Source of the DNA: Euzebya pacifica
GTDB taxonomy: Bacteria > Actinomycetota > Nitriliruptoria > Euzebyales > Euzebyaceae
Length of the DNA stretch: 64,000 bases
Assembly (NCBI RefSeq): GCF_003344865.1
Contig: NZ_CP031165.1
Span: 806,001-870,000, forward strand
Direction of reading: 5' to 3'
Under the pieces are notes generated by a model that saw only the letters and a list, made by a program, of their open reading frames with translations, searched no databases and was not told the DNA's origin. Numbering within the stretch: the stretch's first letter is position 1; each line of letters starts with the position of its first letter. A program made the translations under genes and the position numbers. Shown in pieces: positions 4,674 to 53,576 of this stretch.

Positions 4674-5141
4674 ATGGGCGCTGTCGACGACCGCCTGGCG
4701 GCTGCCGGGATCGAGCTGCCCGAGGCACCGCCCCCGGCTGCGGCCTACGTGCCGTGGACGCGGACGGGCAACCTGGTCTTCACCGCTGGGCAGATCCCGG
4801 TGAAGGACGGCAGTCCGATCAGCGCCGGCAAGGTCGGTGCCGACGTGTCGCTGGAGGAGGGGCAGGCCGCTGCTCGCCAGTGCGCGATCAACGTGCTGGC
4901 CCAGCTGAAGGCCGCGACCGACGGCGACCTCGACCGCATCGCACGGATCGTCAAGATCACCGTCTTCGTGGCCAGCGCGCCCGACTTCGCCCAGCAGCAC
5001 CTGGTGGCCAACGGCGCCTCCGAGCTGCTCGGCGAGATCCTCGGCGACGAGGTCGGCCGCCACGCCCGGTCCGCGGTGGGCACAGCGGTGCTGCCGCTGG
5101 ACGTCCCGGTCGAGGTTGAGGCCGTGGCCGAACTCAGGTGA
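4674..5141 (+). CDS. RidA-family (YjgF/UK114) enamine/imine deaminase-like protein
   Basis: 155 residues, the longer RidA subgroup common in bacteria and distinct from the 128-residue E. coli type. Family motifs visible: TGNLVFTAGQIPV (strand with Gly-Gln), the central helix ARQCAINVLAQLKAA, IVKITVFVAS, and the C-terminal R-x-A-V-G-T-A-V-L-P-L-D-V-P-V-E-V-E segment containing the arginine that binds the carboxylate of enamine substrates. RidA proteins form trimers and hydrolyse reactive 2-aminoacrylate-type intermediates released by PLP enzymes. Members of this subgroup are not always catalytically tested. It is cotranscribed with the DUF4177-like gene upstream and convergent with selB; its stop codon lies inside a 26-bp tandem repeat. 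Confidence 0.9.
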   Translation: MGAVDDRLAAAGIELPEAPPPAAAYVPWTRTGNLVFTAGQIPVKDGSPISAGKVGADVSLEEGQAAARQCAINVLAQLKAATDGDLDRIARIVKITVFVASAPDFAQQHLVANGASELLGEILGDEVGRHARSAVGTAVLPLDVPVEVEAVAELR

Positions 5142-5195
5142 AACGGGCGATAGCCGAACTCGGGTGAAACGGGCTGTGGCCGAGGTCAGGTGAGG
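5128..5195. repeat. 26-bp tandem repeat spanning the convergent ridA and selB 3' ends
   Basis: Two full 26-base units begin at 5128 and 5154 (shared core CCGAACTC-G/A-GGTGAAACGGGC) and a third, more diverged, begins at 5180 (CCGAGGTCAGGTGAGG). The array contains the stop codon of ridA (5139-5141) and the stop codon of selB (5186-5188). The unit is not a multiple of three, so it does not look like a coding repeat. Possible roles are a bidirectional termination region or a simple slippage expansion; no strong hairpin was found. Confidence 0.75.
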
Positions 5196-7036
5196 TGTCG
5201 TAGGTCGCCATCGCGGGTCGTGACCCCGGTGGTGTCCAGCAGCTCCAGCAGTGGCAGGGCGAACCGACGGGTCGTGTCGAGCGCCTCTCGTGCCTGTGAC
5301 GCCGTGAACGGTCCGCTGTCGGCCTGCAGGGCCGCCAGCCTGGCAGTCGCCCGCTCCAGGGCGCTGGCCGTCATGGCCGCGTCCAGTCCGGGCAGGTCCA
5401 CGAGCTGACCGGTCGACCGCAGGACCGTCAGCAGGTCGTCGTCGGCGCACACGGCCTCGGCGACCTCGGCGAGGGGCGCAGGGCTGGCCCCCTCGGCGTC
5501 CAGCCGTTCCAGCAACGCCACCCTGGCTGACTGCTGGGCCACCGTCAGCCGGGGCTCGTGGCCGGGGGCGGCAACCCCGCCCGGGACGCTGGTCAGCCGG
5601 TCGCGCTCGACGAGCAGGCCGAGCAGCGGGCGGATGACGTCGAGGGGACAGCCGGCTTCCCGCAGCCGCCGTCGGGGAACCTCCGGGTCGACGGCGGGCA
5701 GGGCCGGACGTCGCTGGTGGAACGACACGACGGCGCTGACGGCCAGCCCGCTCCACAGCGCGAACTCCTCCGGGTGCACCAAGTGGTCACCGACCACGAT
5801 TGCGTCACCCGCCGCGATCGCGTCGGGGCCGGCGTTGGCGTCGGCCAGGACGGCCGCGGTCGGGGCGGCCCGTCGTGCCTCGACCAGCAGGCGCACCCGG
5901 TCGGCTGGGGCGTCCACGGAGCCGGCGCGCTCCAGCCGCTGTGCACGGGACCGCCGGGCCGTGGCGCCTCGGACCCGCGGGCCGGGGGCCGGGTCGATGA
6001 CCGTCCCACCTCCCGCGGTCACCCCACGGCCGGACTCGCGCAGCACCACCCGGTCGCCGACGGCCAACGGCAGGGGTCGGTCCATCTCCAGCCGGACCGC
6101 GCCCACGTCGAGGAGGTCCTGGCCGGCCACGGGATGGACGTGCACGCCCACCGCGGCGGTGCCGACGTGTGCGGTCCATGCGCCCCGCCGGCCGACGACC
6201 TGCCCGTCGACGGGGCTCACCAGTGCCTCGACCACCTCGGTGGTTTGCCAGCCGCCGCCCACCACCGCGTCGCCGCGTCCCACCTCGTCGGCATCGACGC
6301 CGGAGAGGTTCATCGCCACACGCCAGCCGGGCCGCACCTCCTCCACGTCCTGCTCGAGCGCCTGCAGCCCCCGCACCCGCACCTCGCGGTCCAGCGGCAG
6401 GACGTGCAGGCGATCACCCACGGCCACCGCGCCACCCTGGAGGGTGCCGGTGACGACGGTCCCGGCCCCGCGGATGCTGAAGGCACGGTCCAGCCACATC
6501 CGCGGACGCCCGTCGTCGGGGACGGCCGGTGCGGCGGACAGCATTGCCGTCAGGGCCACGCGGAGCTCCTCCAGGCCGGCGCCGGTCGTGCTGGACACCG
6601 GCACGATGGGGGCGTCGGCCAGCGCGGTGTCCTGCAGCTGGTCGGCCAGCAGCTCGGCGGCGATCCAGGCGGTCTCCTCGTCGACCAGATCGACGCGTGT
6701 CAGGGCCACGACGGCGTGGGTGGTGCCGAGCAGCTCGAGGATGGCCAGGTGCTCGGCGGACTGCGGCATCCACCCCTCGTCGGCGGCCACGACGAACAGG
6801 GCCGTCCGAACCGGCCCCGCCCCGGCCAGCATCGTCGGCACGAACCGTTCGTGTCCCGGTAGGTCCACGAAGGCGACATCGCCGACGTCGGGCAGCGTGG
6901 TCCACGCGAAGCCCAGGTCGATGGTCAGCCCCCGACGCTTCTCCTCCGCCAGCCGGTCGGGATCGCGCCCGGTCAGGGCGGTCACCAGGGTGGACTTGCC
7001 GTGGTCGACGTGCCCGGCGGTGCAGATGACCCTCAC
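5186..7036 (-). CDS. selB: Selenocysteine-specific translation elongation factor SelB
   Basis: 616 residues, the usual SelB length. N-terminal GTPase: G1 GHVDHGKST, effector region RRGLTIDLGFAW (the GLTID-LG signature separates SelB from EF-Tu), G3 DLPGHERF, G4 TRVD (SelB normally has TKxD), then EF-Tu-like domains II-III with FSIRGAGTVVTGTL. The C-terminal half is Arg/Leu-rich and fits the winged-helix repeats that bind the SECIS hairpin. SelB delivers Sec-tRNA to in-frame UGA codons on the ribosome. The GTG start at 7036 overlaps the clcA stop by four bases (GTGA), so it is translationally coupled to clcA; the open frame upstream of this GTG is not SelB-like. The presence of selB and selA commits the genome to selenoprotein synthesis, and a candidate target gene lies at 59.4 kb. 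Confidence 0.97.
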   Translation of the reverse strand: MRVICTAGHVDHGKSTLVTALTGRDPDRLAEEKRRGLTIDLGFAWTTLPDVGDVAFVDLPGHERFVPTMLAGAGPVRTALFVVAADEGWMPQSAEHLAILELLGTTHAVVALTRVDLVDEETAWIAAELLADQLQDTALADAPIVPVSSTTGAGLEELRVALTAMLSAAPAVPDDGRPRMWLDRAFSIRGAGTVVTGTLQGGAVAVGDRLHVLPLDREVRVRGLQALEQDVEEVRPGWRVAMNLSGVDADEVGRGDAVVGGGWQTTEVVEALVSPVDGQVVGRRGAWTAHVGTAAVGVHVHPVAGQDLLDVGAVRLEMDRPLPLAVGDRVVLRESGRGVTAGGGTVIDPAPGPRVRGATARRSRAQRLERAGSVDAPADRVRLLVEARRAAPTAAVLADANAGPDAIAAGDAIVVGDHLVHPEEFALWSGLAVSAVVSFHQRRPALPAVDPEVPRRRLREAGCPLDVIRPLLGLLVERDRLTSVPGGVAAPGHEPRLTVAQQSARVALLERLDAEGASPAPLAEVAEAVCADDDLLTVLRSTGQLVDLPGLDAAMTASALERATARLAALQADSGPFTASQAREALDTTRRFALPLLELLDTTGVTTRDGDLRHLT

Positions 7037-47997: not shown

Positions 47998-48510
47998 TCA
48001 GGCGGCGGCGGCGACGTCGATCTCTGCTCGGGAGACCACCGTCAGCACGCCCGTGCCGTACTCCTCGATGTCCACGGTGAAGTGACGGCGGCGGTCGCCG
48101 TCCTGCAGCAGCGTGCGAACCCCGCCGGGCAGCAGCTCGCCGACCCGGTACATGCCGCGCAGCTTGACGTGGGGGCTGTCAGGGGAGTTGAGGACCCGCG
48201 ACAGGACGTTCACCACTTCCTTGAAGCAGTCGAACATGTCCCCGTCGATCTCGGCGGCCTCGAGGGCCTCGTCGGCGACCGTCGGCGGCATCATGACCAG
48301 CGCGGAGCCCGACCGGCACGCGAAGGGCAGGTCAGCGATCGCTGCGCCGGCGGCCTCGCCGTCGGCGTCGACGTACTCGGCGATGACGGCCACGGTGCCG
48401 GGGGACAGCGCCACGCCGTCATCGATCCGCTCGACCGCACAGGTCTTGGACAGCAGGTCGGAGAAGAGGTCGCGGAGCGCCTCTCGGTCGGGCAGGGGAA
48501 CGTCGGCCAT
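47998..48510 (-). CDS. CheC/CheX-like protein, last gene of the chemotaxis cluster
   Basis: 170 residues. The middle reads AEIDGDMFDCFKEVVNVLSRVLNSPD, containing the E-V-V-N-V-L-S pattern equivalent to the E-x-x-N phosphatase helix of CheC/CheX, and the flanking alpha/beta pattern (TVAVIAEYVDADGEAAGAAIADL, ALVMMPPTVADEA) fits the family. It may dephosphorylate a CheY protein, but similarity is weak and only half of the usual duplicated helix pair is seen. ATG 48510; separated from cheY by a 15-bp tandem repeat. Confidence 0.6.
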   Translation of the reverse strand: MADVPLPDREALRDLFSDLLSKTCAVERIDDGVALSPGTVAVIAEYVDADGEAAGAAIADLPFACRSGSALVMMPPTVADEALEAAEIDGDMFDCFKEVVNVLSRVLNSPDSPHVKLRGMYRVGELLPGGVRTLLQDGDRRRHFTVDIEEYGTGVLTVVSRAEIDVAAAA

Positions 48511-48540
48511 GGGATCACGCGGTCTCTCGTCGACTGTTGC

Positions 48541-48609
48541 TCAGGACACTGGTGGTCAGGAAACTGGTGGTCAGGAAACTGGTGGTCAGGAAACTGGTGG
48601 TCAGGAAAG
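48541..48609 (-). repeat. 15-bp tandem repeat with an in-frame TGA in every unit
   Basis: Four full 15-base units plus a 9-base partial (plus-strand unit TCAGGAAACTGGTGG; the unit at 48541 has one change). The partial unit at 48601 contains the cheY stop codon. On the minus strand each unit reads TGA-CCA-CCA-GTT-TCC, in phase with cheY, so five stop codons follow each other at 15-base spacing. It fills the spacer between cheY and the CheC/X-like gene and is probably variable in copy number. Confidence 0.9.
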
Positions 48610-48963
48610 GGCACCGGACAGCACGCTGGTGAACGTCTCTGCGGTGAAGGGCTTGGCGATCGTGAACGACGCGCCGTTGATGATGGCCACCTCGCGCATG
48701 TCCGGGGTGGTCTCGGAGGTGACGAACCCGAACGTGGTCGTGTTGCCCTCCGCGCGCAGGGCCTGCAGGAACTCGATACCCGACATGTTCGGCATGTTCC
48801 AGTCCGACACGATCAGATCGGGTTCGTGTTCGCGCACGGCCGCGAGGCCCTGTGCACCGTCCTCGGCCTGGACGAACTCGGCGTCGGCGAACTCGGTCTG
48901 CTTCAGCATGCGCATGACGATCATGCGCATCGCCTTCGAGTCGTCGCACACAACGATCTTCAT
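48601..48963 (-). CDS. cheY: CheY-type chemotaxis response regulator
   Basis: 120 residues, CheY length. D7-D8 acidic pocket (VVCDDSKAMR), phosphoacceptor D54 (LIVSDWNMPNMSGIEFL), T in GFVTSETT, K in TIAKPFT. The DWNMP motif is that of true CheY proteins acting on the flagellar switch or other motor. Sixth gene of the chemotaxis operon. Its stop codon lies in the first unit of the TGA repeat. Confidence 0.92.
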   Translation of the reverse strand: MKIVVCDDSKAMRMIVMRMLKQTEFADAEFVQAEDGAQGLAAVREHEPDLIVSDWNMPNMSGIEFLQALRAEGNTTTFGFVTSETTPDMREVAIINGASFTIAKPFTAETFTSVLSGALS

Positions 48964-49084: not shown

Positions 49085-49549
49085 TCAGGCGAAGGCAGGT
49101 ACGTCCGCCGACGCGCGCTGCAGGACACGCACGGCCAACGGGTGGCCGGCCGAGGCGAACCACGACTCGTTGAGCACCGTGGACCCCGGGACGGTCAGCG
49201 TGTACTGCGTGCCGCCGATGACGGTCGGCAGCGACAGGCTGCACGGACCGTCGACCAGCGCCTTCACGCTGCCCCCGAGCATGTTGGCGATCTCGCCGAA
49301 CGCGTCGCCGATGTCGTCCTCCGACAGCTCGTCTGCCTCCATGCCGAACATGGCCGCGGCAACCGACGCCGCCAGCGCCTGCGGACCGTGCAGGACGATC
49401 GTTCCCTCCCACGCCCCGTGGACATGGATGAGGCTCGACAGCGACGGTGCGTCGTCGGTCCGCGGGCTGCTCTCGCCGATGTCCATGCCGAGCACCGAGT
49501 GCCAGATCTCGGCCACGAGGGCCTCGATGTCGTGATGACTCAGTTCCAT
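49085..49549 (-). CDS. cheX: CheX-type CheY-P phosphatase
   Basis: 154 residues. CheX/CheC signature helix DDIGDAFGEIANMLGGSVKALV (E-x-x-N with following Gly) supplies the glutamate and asparagine that attack CheY-phosphate. The remaining pattern (LIHVHGAWEGTIVLHGPQALAASVAAAMFGM) fits the alpha/beta fold of CheX. It should switch off the CheY signal; no CheZ exists in this type of bacterium. AGGAAGAG precedes the ATG. A 121-base gap to cheY holds no gene. Confidence 0.85.
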   Translation of the reverse strand: MELSHHDIEALVAEIWHSVLGMDIGESSPRTDDAPSLSSLIHVHGAWEGTIVLHGPQALAASVAAAMFGMEADELSEDDIGDAFGEIANMLGGSVKALVDGPCSLSLPTVIGGTQYTLTVPGSTVLNESWFASAGHPLAVRVLQRASADVPAFA

Positions 49550-49580: not shown

Positions 49581-50441
49581 TCACAGCGGGGGTTCCTGCA
49601 GCGTGCGGAACCACACGGAACGTCCGAGGGTCACGCGGTCGTAGTCGGTTGGCGCGCCGACAGTCGTCTCCGTGCCGCCGAGGCCGAGGTAGCCCCCCGG
49701 GACGAGCGTCTGCCGCATCCGATGCAGGATGTCGTTCCTCGTGGCGTCGTCGAAGTAGATGAGGACGTTCCGCAGCAGCACGACGTCGGTCCCGCGCGGT
49801 GCGGCCCAGGGGCCGATGAGGTTGGTGTGCTCGAACCGAACCATCCGTCGGATGTCGTCGCTGATGCGCCATCGGGCCCCCTGCCGGTGGAAGTGCTTGA
49901 CCAGCATCGACGCCGGGAGGCCTCGGTTGACGTCGAGATGGGAGAACTCGCCGTGTGCAGCCCTGGCCAGCACGGCGCGGGAGATGTCGGTGGCCAGGAT
50001 CTGCAGGTCCCAGCCGAGCAACGCCGGCAGGTGCTCGTGGATCGCCATCGCAACGGAGTAGGGCTCCTGGCCGGAGGACGCGGCGGCACACCAGATGCGC
50101 ATCCGGCGGGTGGCCGCGTTGGCGCGCATCAGCTCGGGGAGGACGTCGGTGACCAGCGTCCGGAACGGGTGCACGTCGCGGAAGAAGGACGTCTCGTTGA
50201 TGGTCAGCGCGTCGATGACGTCGACCGACAGCCGGCCCCTCGGTTGTGCCCTCACGCGTTCCACGAGCTGCCCGAGGTCGCTGATGTCGTGCGCGGCGGC
50301 CACCGGACCGAGGCGCGAGACCACCAGGTACTCCTTGCCCTCGTCGATCCTGATCGCGGACTCGCGGCGCACGAAGTCCTGTATCCACGAGAAGTCGGCT
50401 GCGGAGATACCGGCCGCAGGCGTGGTGGTCGGGGGGCTCAT
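49581..50441 (-). CDS. cheR: CheR chemoreceptor methyltransferase
   Basis: 286 residues: N-terminal helical domain (FSWIQDFVRRESAIRIDEGKEYLVVSRL), the N-E-T-S-F-F-R-D linker motif (TINETSFFRDVHPF), and a SAM-binding Rossmann domain (RIWCAAASSGQEPYSVAMAI, ILATDISRAVL, DVVLLRNVLIYF). It methylates glutamates of chemoreceptors. No cheB or receptor gene is in the window, so these must lie elsewhere. 28 bases after cheY. Confidence 0.95.
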   Translation of the reverse strand: MSPPTTTPAAGISAADFSWIQDFVRRESAIRIDEGKEYLVVSRLGPVAAAHDISDLGQLVERVRAQPRGRLSVDVIDALTINETSFFRDVHPFRTLVTDVLPELMRANAATRRMRIWCAAASSGQEPYSVAMAIHEHLPALLGWDLQILATDISRAVLARAAHGEFSHLDVNRGLPASMLVKHFHRQGARWRISDDIRRMVRFEHTNLIGPWAAPRGTDVVLLRNVLIYFDDATRNDILHRMRQTLVPGGYLGLGGTETTVGAPTDYDRVTLGRSVWFRTLQEPPL

Positions 50442-50469: not shown

Positions 50470-50865
50470 TCATGCGTCGGCTCCGGAGACGGCCGGCAGC
50501 GGGACGCCCATCAGGCTCATCTTGCTCGCGACGGCGTCGGCGGTCACGGGCTTGATGGCGTACTCGTCGGCACCGGCCTTCATCGCCTCGTAGACGTTGC
50601 GGGGGCTGGCCTCGGAGGTGACCACGAGCAGCTTGACCCGGTCCCACCGGCGGTCGCTGCGCACGGTCCGGATGAACGTCAGGCCATCCATGACGGGCAT
50701 GTTCCAGTCGACGAGGGCAACGTCGAAGGGCCCGTCGGACTCCAGCACGTCGAGCCCCGCACGGCCGTGTTCGGCGCCGGTGGTGTCGAAGCCGAGGCCT
50801 GTCAGCAGACGGGACAGCAGGCTTCGCATCGCGCGGGAGTCGTCGATCACGAGGGAACGGGGCAT
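50470..50865 (-). CDS. CheY-type chemotaxis response regulator (second copy)
   Basis: 131 residues with DDSRAMR pocket, D53 (VALVDWNMPVMDGLTFI), T/S in VVTSEAS, K in YAIKPVT. The DWNMP motif again marks CheY. It differs from the other CheY in the alpha4-beta5 face and has an Ala/Pro tail. Placed between cheW and cheR, with AGGAG-like GGAGACC before the ATG. One of the two CheYs may act as a phosphate sink. Confidence 0.9.
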   Translation of the reverse strand: MPRSLVIDDSRAMRSLLSRLLTGLGFDTTGAEHGRAGLDVLESDGPFDVALVDWNMPVMDGLTFIRTVRSDRRWDRVKLLVVTSEASPRNVYEAMKAGADEYAIKPVTADAVASKMSLMGVPLPAVSGADA

Positions 50866-50880: not shown

Positions 50881-51369
50881 TCAGGATCCCAACCGCAGCA
50901 CCGCGGTCAGGTCCAGTGCCAGCAACAGCCGGCCGTCGAGCTTGTAGATCCCCTCGATGACCGAGGATGCGCTGGCAGGCAACGTCGCCGGCGGCTCCTC
51001 GAGCAGGTCGCGGGTGACGTCGGTCACGTCGCCGATGGCGTCCACGAGCAGGCTCGTGGGACCGTTCGGGGTGCGGACGACCACGTTGAGCGATCGGTCA
51101 CACGGGGTTCGGTCCGTGTCGGCAGTTCGTGCGGACAGGCCGAGCCGCGACCTGAGGTCGACCGCGGTGACGATCTGTCCGCGAAGGTTGATCAGGCCCC
51201 GGACCTCCCCGGGTGCCAGCGGCACGGGGGTCATGTCCTGGTGGCGGATGACCTCCTGGACATCGAGCACGTCGACGCCGAGGAAGAGGTCGTCCACCGA
51301 GAAGGTGCACAGCTGGCGGACGGGGGCATGGTCGCGAGGACGTCGGTCGATCAGGGCGTTCGTGGCCAT
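50881..51369 (-). CDS. cheW: CheW coupling protein
   Basis: 162 residues of CheW fold: QLCTFSVDDLFLGVDVLDVQEVIRHQDMTPVPLAPGEVRGLINLRGQIVTAVDLRSRLGL is the classic stretch with G-L-I-N-L-R-G that contacts CheA P5 and receptors. The ATG overlaps the cheA stop by one base (TGATG), so it is coupled to cheA. It links receptors to the kinase. Confidence 0.95.
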   Translation of the reverse strand: MATNALIDRRPRDHAPVRQLCTFSVDDLFLGVDVLDVQEVIRHQDMTPVPLAPGEVRGLINLRGQIVTAVDLRSRLGLSARTADTDRTPCDRSLNVVVRTPNGPTSLLVDAIGDVTDVTRDLLEEPPATLPASASSVIEGIYKLDGRLLLALDLTAVLRLGS

Positions 51370-53576
51370 CAGGCGGTCACCAGCTCGTGGTCGAGCATCT
51401 CGGGGGCAACGGTTGCGATGACGGCCTGGACGTCCAGCACGTCGGTGACCCGGTCCCCGACGACGGCGGAGCCGAGCACACCGTGGCGCGGTGACGAACC
51501 CCGCAGCACCAGGGGTTCGTCGAGCACGTCGTGGATGCGGTGCACGACCAGGCCCACGCGATGGGCTCCGCGTTCGTGGACGATGACCTGCAGCGTCGGG
51601 GACGCGTGCTCCGGCTGTCCCAGTCCGAGGACTCGGGACAGGTCGACCAGGGGGAGGATGGCGTTGCGGTACTGCACGACCGGTTGCCCTGACGCGTACT
51701 CGACGAGTGAGCCGTCGATCTCCTCCAGCCGCGCGACCTGGCGGAGCGGGAGGACCATCCGGACGTCGTTGCCGTGCTGGCCGGTGCCGAGGCCGAAGAC
51801 GAGGAGGGATTCGACGTCGGACCCGCTGAGGGTGGCGTCGTGGTCGTCGCTGGGCTGCGCCCGGTCGGGCGTCGACCCGATCCCGACGCTGTCGGCGATC
51901 CCCATCACGTCGAGGATGAGCGCAACGCGGCCATCGCCCATGATGGTCGCGCCCGCGTAGACCGACAGGTCGTGGAGGGCCTGCCCGAGCGGCTTGACCA
52001 CGATCTCGGCGGTGTCGTCGACGGCATCGACGACGAGCCCGAACTGCTGCGTGTCGGCCTGGAGCACGACGATGTTGGACGCCGCCGTCGGTGGGGTGTC
52101 GAGGCCCAGCACATCGGCGAGCCCGACCAGCGGCAGCAGCGTGTCGCGAAGCCGGTACACCGGGGTGCCGTGGACGTGTTCGATGGCGGTGGTCGCCTCG
52201 TCGGCCTCCACGCGGACGAGCTCGAGGAGGCTGACCTGTGGGATCGCGAAGCGCTGCCCGCCCGAGGTGACGATCAGGGCCGGGATGATGGCGAGCGTCA
52301 ACGGGATCTTCAGCTTGGTGATCGTGCCCGCGCCGGGGGTGGAGGTCAGGTCGACGCTGCCACCGATGCGCTCGATGGCGGTTCGCACCACGTCCATGCC
52401 GACGCCGCGTCCGGACAGGTTGGACACCGATTCCACCGTGGAGAAGCCAGGGGCGAAGACCAGGTCGACGATCTGGCGGTCGGTCATCGCCTGCGCCTGC
52501 TCGGCGGTCACGATCCCCTTGGTGACCGCCTTCACCGCAACCGCCCCGGGGTCGATGCCCGCGCCGTCATCGGCGATCTCGATGTTGACCTGACCTCCCT
52601 CGTGGTAGGCGCGAAGGGTGACGCGGCCGGTCTCGGGCTTGCCCGCTGCCCGGCGCATCTCCGGTGTCTCGATGCCGTGGTCCACGGAGTTGCGGACCAT
52701 GTGGGTCAGCGGGTCCTTGATGGCCTCGATGATGGTCTTGTCGAGCTCGGTGTCCTTGCCCTCCAGCTCGACGGTCACCTGCTTGCCCAGCGATACGGCG
52801 ATGTCGCGCACGACGCGCGGGAACTTGCCGAAGACGTTGCCGATGGGCTGCATGCGCGTCTTCATGACGCCTTCCTGCAGCTCGGTCGTGATCAGGTTGA
52901 GGCGCTGGGAGGTGTCGGCCAGCGTGGAGGACCCGCTTCGGGCCGCGACCTGCACGAGCTGGTTGCGGGCGAGGACCAGCTCGCCGACCAGGTTCATCAG
53001 GTTGTCCAGCAGGTCGACGTCGACGCGGATGGTGGAGTCACTCGTGGTCCCGGCCACGTCCCGAGGCTCGTCGACCGGACCCGCTTCTGTCCCTGTGGGT
53101 GCTGCCACCGGGGCGTCTGCCACGGTGGGGGCCACGAGGTCGGGGGCGTCCTGCGCTGCCGCGTCCAGACGGGCGACGAGGGGGCCGTACTCGCCGGGGC
53201 CCTCGGTGCCGTCGGCCGCGATCGAGGCCAGGATCTCGCGAAGCGCATCGACCATGGCGAGCAGCACGCTGGTGCGGGCGGCGTCCAGCTGCAGCTCGCG
53301 GTCGCGGAGCCTGGCGAGGAGGCTCTCGCCGACGTGGGCAACGGACTCGAGCTTGCCGTAGCCGAGGAAGCCGGACGTGCCCTTGATCGTGTGGACGTCG
53401 CGGAAGATGCCGGCGAGGACGTCGACGTCGTCCGGGTCGTCCTCGAGCCGGACGAGGTCCACGTCGAGCCGATCGAGGTTCTCGTGGCTCTCCACGAGGA
53501 ACTCCTCGATGATCTCGTCCATCTCGTCCACGTGCGAGGCCTTCCGGGCGTTCCGTGCTGCTGACGGATCTCCCAT
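51369..53576 (-). CDS. cheA: CheA chemotaxis histidine kinase with duplicated CheW-like domain
   Basis: 735 residues. HPt domain with phosphoacceptor H62 (DVHTIKGTSGFLGYGKLE), a short linker with no recognisable P2 CheY-binding domain, P3 dimerisation (DLLDNLMNLVGELVLARNQLV), P4 ATPase (HMVRNSVDHGIE, DDGAGIDP, GRGVGMDVVRTAIE), P5 CheW-like (LAIIPALIVTSGGQRFAIPQ), then a second CheW-like domain of about 150 residues (SLLVFGLGTGQHGNDVRMVLPLRQVARLEEI, AILPLVDLSRVLG). The extra domain could bind receptors without separate CheW. First gene of the operon; GAGGCG precedes the ATG. Confidence 0.95.
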   Translation of the reverse strand: MGDPSAARNARKASHVDEMDEIIEEFLVESHENLDRLDVDLVRLEDDPDDVDVLAGIFRDVHTIKGTSGFLGYGKLESVAHVGESLLARLRDRELQLDAARTSVLLAMVDALREILASIAADGTEGPGEYGPLVARLDAAAQDAPDLVAPTVADAPVAAPTGTEAGPVDEPRDVAGTTSDSTIRVDVDLLDNLMNLVGELVLARNQLVQVAARSGSSTLADTSQRLNLITTELQEGVMKTRMQPIGNVFGKFPRVVRDIAVSLGKQVTVELEGKDTELDKTIIEAIKDPLTHMVRNSVDHGIETPEMRRAAGKPETGRVTLRAYHEGGQVNIEIADDGAGIDPGAVAVKAVTKGIVTAEQAQAMTDRQIVDLVFAPGFSTVESVSNLSGRGVGMDVVRTAIERIGGSVDLTSTPGAGTITKLKIPLTLAIIPALIVTSGGQRFAIPQVSLLELVRVEADEATTAIEHVHGTPVYRLRDTLLPLVGLADVLGLDTPPTAASNIVVLQADTQQFGLVVDAVDDTAEIVVKPLGQALHDLSVYAGATIMGDGRVALILDVMGIADSVGIGSTPDRAQPSDDHDATLSGSDVESLLVFGLGTGQHGNDVRMVLPLRQVARLEEIDGSLVEYASGQPVVQYRNAILPLVDLSRVLGLGQPEHASPTLQVIVHERGAHRVGLVVHRIHDVLDEPLVLRGSSPRHGVLGSAVVGDRVTDVLDVQAVIATVAPEMLDHELVTA

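Follow-up and report, generated by a model that had tools for sequence, protein, structure and literature searches.

Why does a 15-bp tandem repeat carrying a TGA in each unit follow the cheY gene of a che cluster, and does the repeat serve the cell? The window considered here is the whole stretch of DNA analyzed, 64,000 nucleotides in length, and an earlier note on it had suggested either a phase-variable spacer that alters how cheY is coupled to the gene after it or a backup terminator in a species that reads some UGA as selenocysteine. The array is in all likelihood a young, species-specific minisatellite, which would have been born by slippage on the stop codon and tolerated since every copy keeps a stop. 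The sister species lacks it at the corresponding position, other stop-straddling arrays recur in this genome, and it does not look like a dedicated switch or a safety stop.

The array and its setting

The locus comprises the following features, the che genes being arranged in the order cheA, cheW, receiver domain, cheR, cheX, cheY and a gene for a 170-aa protein, all on the minus strand:

48533-48608, minus strand: 15-bp tandem array, unit TTTCCTGACCACCAG (TRF and sequence)
48601-48603, minus strand: true cheY stop, TGA (ORF table and translation)
48586-48588, 48571-48573, 48556-48558 and 48541-48543, minus strand: four extra in-phase TGAs (translation and sequence)
48511-48600, minus strand: spacer of 90 nt between the cheY stop and the downstream ATG
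47998-48510, minus strand: downstream gene, 170 aa (homologues, alignment and profile comparison)
48601-48963, minus strand: cheY, a single receiver domain, 120 aa (PF00072, E 4.1e-23)
49085-49549, minus strand: cheX (Pfam)
49581-50441, minus strand: cheR (Pfam)
50470-50865, minus strand: receiver domain (Pfam)
50881-51369, minus strand: cheW (Pfam)
51369-53576, minus strand: cheA (Pfam)

TRF describes the array by a period of 15, 5.1 copies, 95% matches, 0% indels and a score of 131, and the first copy takes in the final 8 nt of cheY together with its stop. Four copies are exact 15-mers on the minus strand (48594-48608, 48579-48593, 48564-48578 and 48549-48563), followed by a divergent fifth copy at 48534-48548, TGTCCTGAGCAACAG. 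In the coding orientation, cheY ends in ...GGTGCCCTTTCCTGA, after which come three copies of CCACCAGTTTCCTGA, then CCACCAGTGTCCTGA and GCAACAGTCGACGAG..., and reading on from cheY gives the translation ...SGALS*PPVS*PPVS*PPVS*PPVS*ATVDERPRDPMADV. TRF, sequence and translation thus confirm the repeat with one TGA per unit that the earlier note had described after cheY, and translation through the array bears out its four extra stops in phase beyond the true one; the coordinates 48541-48609 were slightly off with respect to those from TRF.

The array is not a chance repeat. Its units of 15 bp are adjacent and head to tail, as in a minisatellite (units of roughly 10 bp or more), and a score of at least 131 is reached by six other arrays with a period below 50 (among 32 listed non-coding arrays, with periods up to 60, in 2.06 Mb). 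With one mismatch allowed, a search of all 6.37 Mb of the genome finds the unit only at the cheY array; the letter-reversed control pattern gave two matches in the genome. GTGTCC precedes the last TGA of the array and likewise the end of cheY in the sister species, and the inner copies are mutually identical, which together fits a recent amplification. The phase of the TGAs carries no information, because any 15-bp array with a stop keeps that stop in phase.

The ATG of the next gene lies in the frame of cheY, and after the last TGA no further stop intervenes before it. The earlier label of this gene as CheC/X-like was not corroborated by family searches, since Pfam yielded nothing at E<=5 and NCBIfam nothing at E<=1; among solved structures, no match lay below E 0.34. 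A profile comparison with CheX homologues gave a weak similarity, with the ExxN motifs aligned (probability 24%, pairwise E 0.00083), and the product is perhaps a divergent CheX/CheC-like protein. Homologues occur in 17 of the 61 genomes of the class, the own genome counted. The family, about 160 aa long and adjoining cheY, has invariant E98, V99, N101, N108, P113 and H114 in an eight-row alignment; alignment A1 comprised 8 of 17 sequences and A2 6 of 16. A scan of named genomes with CheY yielded at least 80 loci, the best identity among the matches listed being 64%, with near relatives possibly missing.

The comparison with relatives covered 61 genomes of the class including this one, one per species, several of them incomplete drafts. 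The nearest relative with both cheY and the downstream gene belongs to the same genus (G002, the sister species; 92% amino-acid identity in the downstream gene), and its spacer from cheY to the next gene is 45 nt long and free of repeats, against 90 nt here. TRF found no array at a score of at least 30 in the 3.5-kb locus of that species (L003), and the printed spacers of the other 15 loci contain no copy of the 15-bp unit. A dimer of the unit (25-nt pattern, up to three mismatches) occurs in one of the 61 genomes, namely that of the window and only in the cheY array; it is absent from 60 of 60 relatives at this stringency, several of these being incomplete drafts. Of the 15 remaining loci, L004-L018, 14 have a candidate start in frame at 0-20 nt past the cheY stop, the exception being L005 with 37 nt; L007 and L017 are ambiguous, with several candidates, and leaving them out gives 12 of 15. 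The variability that had been proposed for the spacer therefore exists on the evolutionary scale, as an array here with none at the sister site, and as a gap of 90 versus 45 nt.

Short-period arrays in this genome and its sister species

Arrays were surveyed with TRF and a simple gene caller in 100 stretches of contig C1, each 20 kb long, together with the window, 2.064 Mb in all, which is about a third of the genome and includes no sequence from contig C2. The gene caller was home-made, relying on codon-position G+C and the longest ORF; start overlaps are therefore less reliable than stop overlaps. The strict filter, whose thresholds were chosen after a first look at the data, dropped arrays with a period below 7 or above 49, fewer than 2.5 copies, less than 80% match, a score below 70 or a position within 50 bases of the end of a stretch.

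Under this filter 49 arrays remained: 23 inside genes, 11 between genes, 13 that cross a stop, and one each that crosses a start or both a stop and a start. Periods are divisible by three in 23 of 23 arrays within genes, in 2 of the 13 that straddle a stop and in 6 of the 11 intergenic ones. Random placement in non-coding DNA would put 25.7% across stops, 24.4% across starts, 7.6% across both and 42.3% between genes, while 13 of the 26 non-coding arrays observed cross a stop (p 0.011) and 1 of 26 a start (p 0.011; stop versus start, p 0.0019). Stops are thus over-represented and starts under-represented; 11 of the 26 lie clear of all called gene ends. When the filter was loosened to periods of up to 60 and a tolerance of 3 nt, 55 arrays were retained, with 23 in genes, 18 at stops, 1 at a start and 13 intergenic.

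At least two stop triplets stand in register, within 1 nt, in 12 of the 14 stop-crossing arrays, and the remaining two have one triplet; the unit sequences, compared by eye, are unlike between arrays. Fourteen such arrays in 2.06 Mb would correspond to perhaps a few tens per genome. Examples include the following:

L125:13279: 14-bp unit, five TGAs
L144:11374: 25-bp unit, four TAGs, between convergent genes
L126:11685: 15-bp unit, three TGAs
5127-5193 of the window, minus strand: stop-straddling array, period 26, 2.6 copies (TRF)

The cheY array is therefore not special to cheY, and its kind recurs after other genes of this genome. The array at 5127-5193 lies between the 3' ends of selB, on the minus strand, and of a convergent called gene, and has two stop triplets in register. 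Two arrays touch called starts. At L195:8095-8270, the 15-bp unit CGGCCCAGTTGATGC is repeated 11.7 times with a score of 310, and this is the sole array at a called gene start only, the short ORF being possibly spurious. At L165:9488-9535, three copies of the 16-bp unit GATCACGCTGGGGTGA span the stop of one gene and the called start of the next.

Turnover was followed by comparing the flanks of 23 of the 32 non-coding arrays (looser filter) with 0.44 Mb of the sister genome. These comprised 15 of the 18 stop arrays and 8 of the 13 intergenic ones, but not the single start array; L127:7235, L195:8095, all five arrays of period 50 and one further intergenic array were excluded. Both flanks were matched for 4 of the 23 and no match was found for 17, while L200 and L148, which matched with one flank only, were dropped from the site comparison. 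The sister sample itself contains 15 arrays that pass the strict filter, 12 of them inside genes, 2 at a stop and 1 at both a stop and a start. In the reverse direction, the three non-coding ones were all set against the sampled part of the present genome: L257:10017 pairs with L126:3134, while a match was obtained for both flanks of L271:12852 and for the upstream flank only of L271:7389.

Six sites could thus be compared (window:48533, L126:11685, L126:3134, L218:16603, L271:7389 and L271:12852), and at none of the six is an identical array present in both species. With both flanks matched, an array exists in one species only at window:48533, L126:11685, whose downstream flank match begins 150 nt out, and L271:12852. 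The sister array L271:7389 follows a called gene with an 18-bp unit bearing a TAG per copy and has no counterpart in the present genome, one flank being matched. Copy number differs between L126:3134 (2.6) and L257:10017 (3.4), and at L218:16603, where the gene call is uncertain, repeats of different units are present in both species.

Origin of the array and competing readings

In the favored reading, a 15-bp stretch including the cheY stop would have been duplicated head to tail and then amplified to five copies, most likely through replication slippage or unequal recombination; slippage is suggested by general knowledge of tandem repeats. As the stop of the first copy still ends CheY, the protein is unchanged, and the array would survive because the start region of the next gene is intact as well, which is compatible with near-neutrality. 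The in-phase TGAs would be by-products of the 15-bp period rather than a selected series of stops. Within genes, such duplications would survive only if in frame, and a duplication over a start region would tend to harm the promoter or ribosome binding. The array counts in genes, at stops and at starts point to such a filter of selection, and slippage together with this filter would explain where the arrays lie, why their period is free, why most units hold a stop and why they turn over.

The bearing of the array on coupling is a separate matter. Translational coupling is reported to work best when the distance is short (PMC12548453), and since the gap here is 90 nt the array may loosen it; as a putative side effect, the longer spacer might couple cheY less tightly to its downstream neighbor. 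It could also be proposed that the spacer acts as a rheostat, in which the number of units, varying by cell or strain, sets re-initiation on the next gene relative to CheY. This would suit the near starts (0-20 nt) in 14 of the 15 other loci, compared with gaps of 45 nt (sister) and 90 nt (present species), the differences in such arrays between the two species, and the unusually unfolded RNA of this species' spacer, which folds worse than 199 of 200 shuffles (z +2.08), a property that could be selected or could come from composition, for which repetition of an A/C/U-rich unit suffices. However, the sister already has a spacer of 45 nt, the unit lacks conservation, and nothing singles out cheY because other genes bear arrays of like character, so that the rheostat is unlikely. 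As a 15-bp step cannot shift the frame, any such effect would be graded and not on/off; likewise, 15-bp steps after the stop preserve the frame and produce no frame switch of the phase-variable kind. As to a switch through promoter strength, a simple sigma-70 scan showed no promoter, a result of little weight in a genome of this kind. Comparably doubtful is the broader proposal that a process of this lineage seeds stop-codon arrays whose turnover between sister species resets spacing, the arrays, that of cheY among them, serving as evolvable rheostats of coupling. The direct repeats might alternatively be DNA or RNA sites for a putative regulator acting on the gene that closes the cluster, as their regular 15-bp spacing and the four exact 15-mers would allow. 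Against this, the unit is found at one locus only (up to one mismatch) and its dimer in 0 of 60 relatives, a simple scan, which is weak for such a genome, detected no promoter-like or terminator-like site at the array, and Rfam gave no match at the gathering score; binding sites are accordingly quite improbable.

The remaining readings concern the stops themselves. The hint of the earlier note about selenocysteine is well founded as regards the organism, since two components of the machinery are encoded above their family cut-offs:

5195-7030, minus strand: SelB (306 bits, cut-off 242)
G000:C1:5001686-5001777: tRNA-Sec (65 bits, cut-off 47)

With the next gene in the cheY frame, both here and in the sister, and with some UGA presumably decoded as selenocysteine, a backup stop could be of use, the extra TGAs catching ribosomes that read through the cheY stop. 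Across 1,469 called genes, no clear excess of in-frame stops was found: over codons 1-6 after the stop the in-frame rate is the lowest (0.0103 per codon versus 0.0109 and 0.0157 in the other frames), and over codons 1-25 it lies between those of the other frames (0.0135 versus 0.0118 and 0.0142). At least four stops within the next 25 codons follow 4 of the 1,469 genes in frame versus 2 and 0 in the other frames, a small difference in the direction of this reading. In eubacteria, Ho and Hurst report no evidence of selection for extra stops and a paucity of them (PMC6764699). Furthermore, the frame in the sister stays open between the cheY stop and the next ATG, RF2 is encoded, the extra stops are again TGA, the very codon whose leakiness would be at issue, and 11 of the 13 stop-straddling arrays have a period that is not divisible by three. 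The idea of a backup terminator is disfavored by the lack of clear in-frame enrichment, by the periods and by the lack of a stable predicted hairpin after any of the five TGAs (45-nt predicted folds of -4.3 to -5.7 kcal/mol, z -0.8 to +2.1), and is highly improbable. The opposite proposal, that the TGAs are decoded as selenocysteine or otherwise so that CheY is fused to the downstream protein, draws on the shared frame, open past the last TGA, and on the encoded machinery. It is scarcely credible, as all five UGAs would need decoding, the predicted folds after each TGA are weak, and the link in frame is lost in G001, where a GTG lies 2 nt past the stop, and in G004, where an in-frame TAA follows the cheY stop and the ATG lies at 37 nt. 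A selenocysteine recoding site at cheY was rejected on the same ground, the machinery being present but no stable hairpin being predicted 3' of the UGA.

With the array taken as a slippage-born minisatellite, the single locus is ordinary, and it is the wider pattern that shows selection filtering tandem duplication: stop-spanning arrays are far commoner than start-spanning ones, and within genes the periods are multiples of three only, whereas across stops other periods prevail. The arrays also constitute a small natural set of spacers for the effects of stop-to-start distance on coupling, and they are candidate typing markers for the genus.

Resemblance to known repeats

Like bacterial minisatellites or VNTRs, the cheY array consists of short head-to-tail units of high identity, and it is absent at the sister site, where other arrays are absent or differ in copy number (a comparison between species); unlike them, it is anchored on a stop codon. 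In the literature on tandem arrays at bacterial stop codons, drawn mostly from non-subscription journals, the nearest cases were the Borg and Beggiatoaceae papers, and under the presumed genus name nothing was found on the cheY array locus. Borg tandem repeats (PMC9879509) similarly form fast-changing arrays, with unit lengths divisible by three in ORFs and mostly not so intergenically; however, they are archaeal, extrachromosomal, perfect and A-enriched, whereas the present arrays are on a bacterial chromosome and their copies partly imperfect. The TAACTGA direct repeats of marine Beggiatoaceae also contain stop codons, and 13 sets overlap the stop of the upstream gene, yet they represent one heptamer in 169 sets of one genome, mostly just upstream of starts (PMC4679880), while the units here vary from array to array.

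The MIRUs of mycobacteria resemble the array in that they are repeats located where two genes meet and carry signals for translation; they are described as mobile elements whose insertion sites are start codons, with a spacing of -4 (PMC12548453). The cheY unit differs in its 15 bp, its single locus, its position at a stop and its longer gap. A MIRU or other dispersed element was ruled out, the unit occurring at one locus (up to one mismatch) and its dimer in 0 of 60 relatives.

A different class of repeat was noted in passing during the survey, namely dispersed intergenic repeats with a period of 50 bp and two to three copies per site:

L180:12468-12608, L165:15583-15725, L175:4923-5070 and L178:3602-3744: 50-bp-period sites
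L212:11607-11745, L177:11198-11316 and L134:4429-4533: 50-bp-period sites

Several of their units are of the form GCGTGTCG...CGACAC, and, judged by eye, they make up a putative family of palindromic repeats of this genome.
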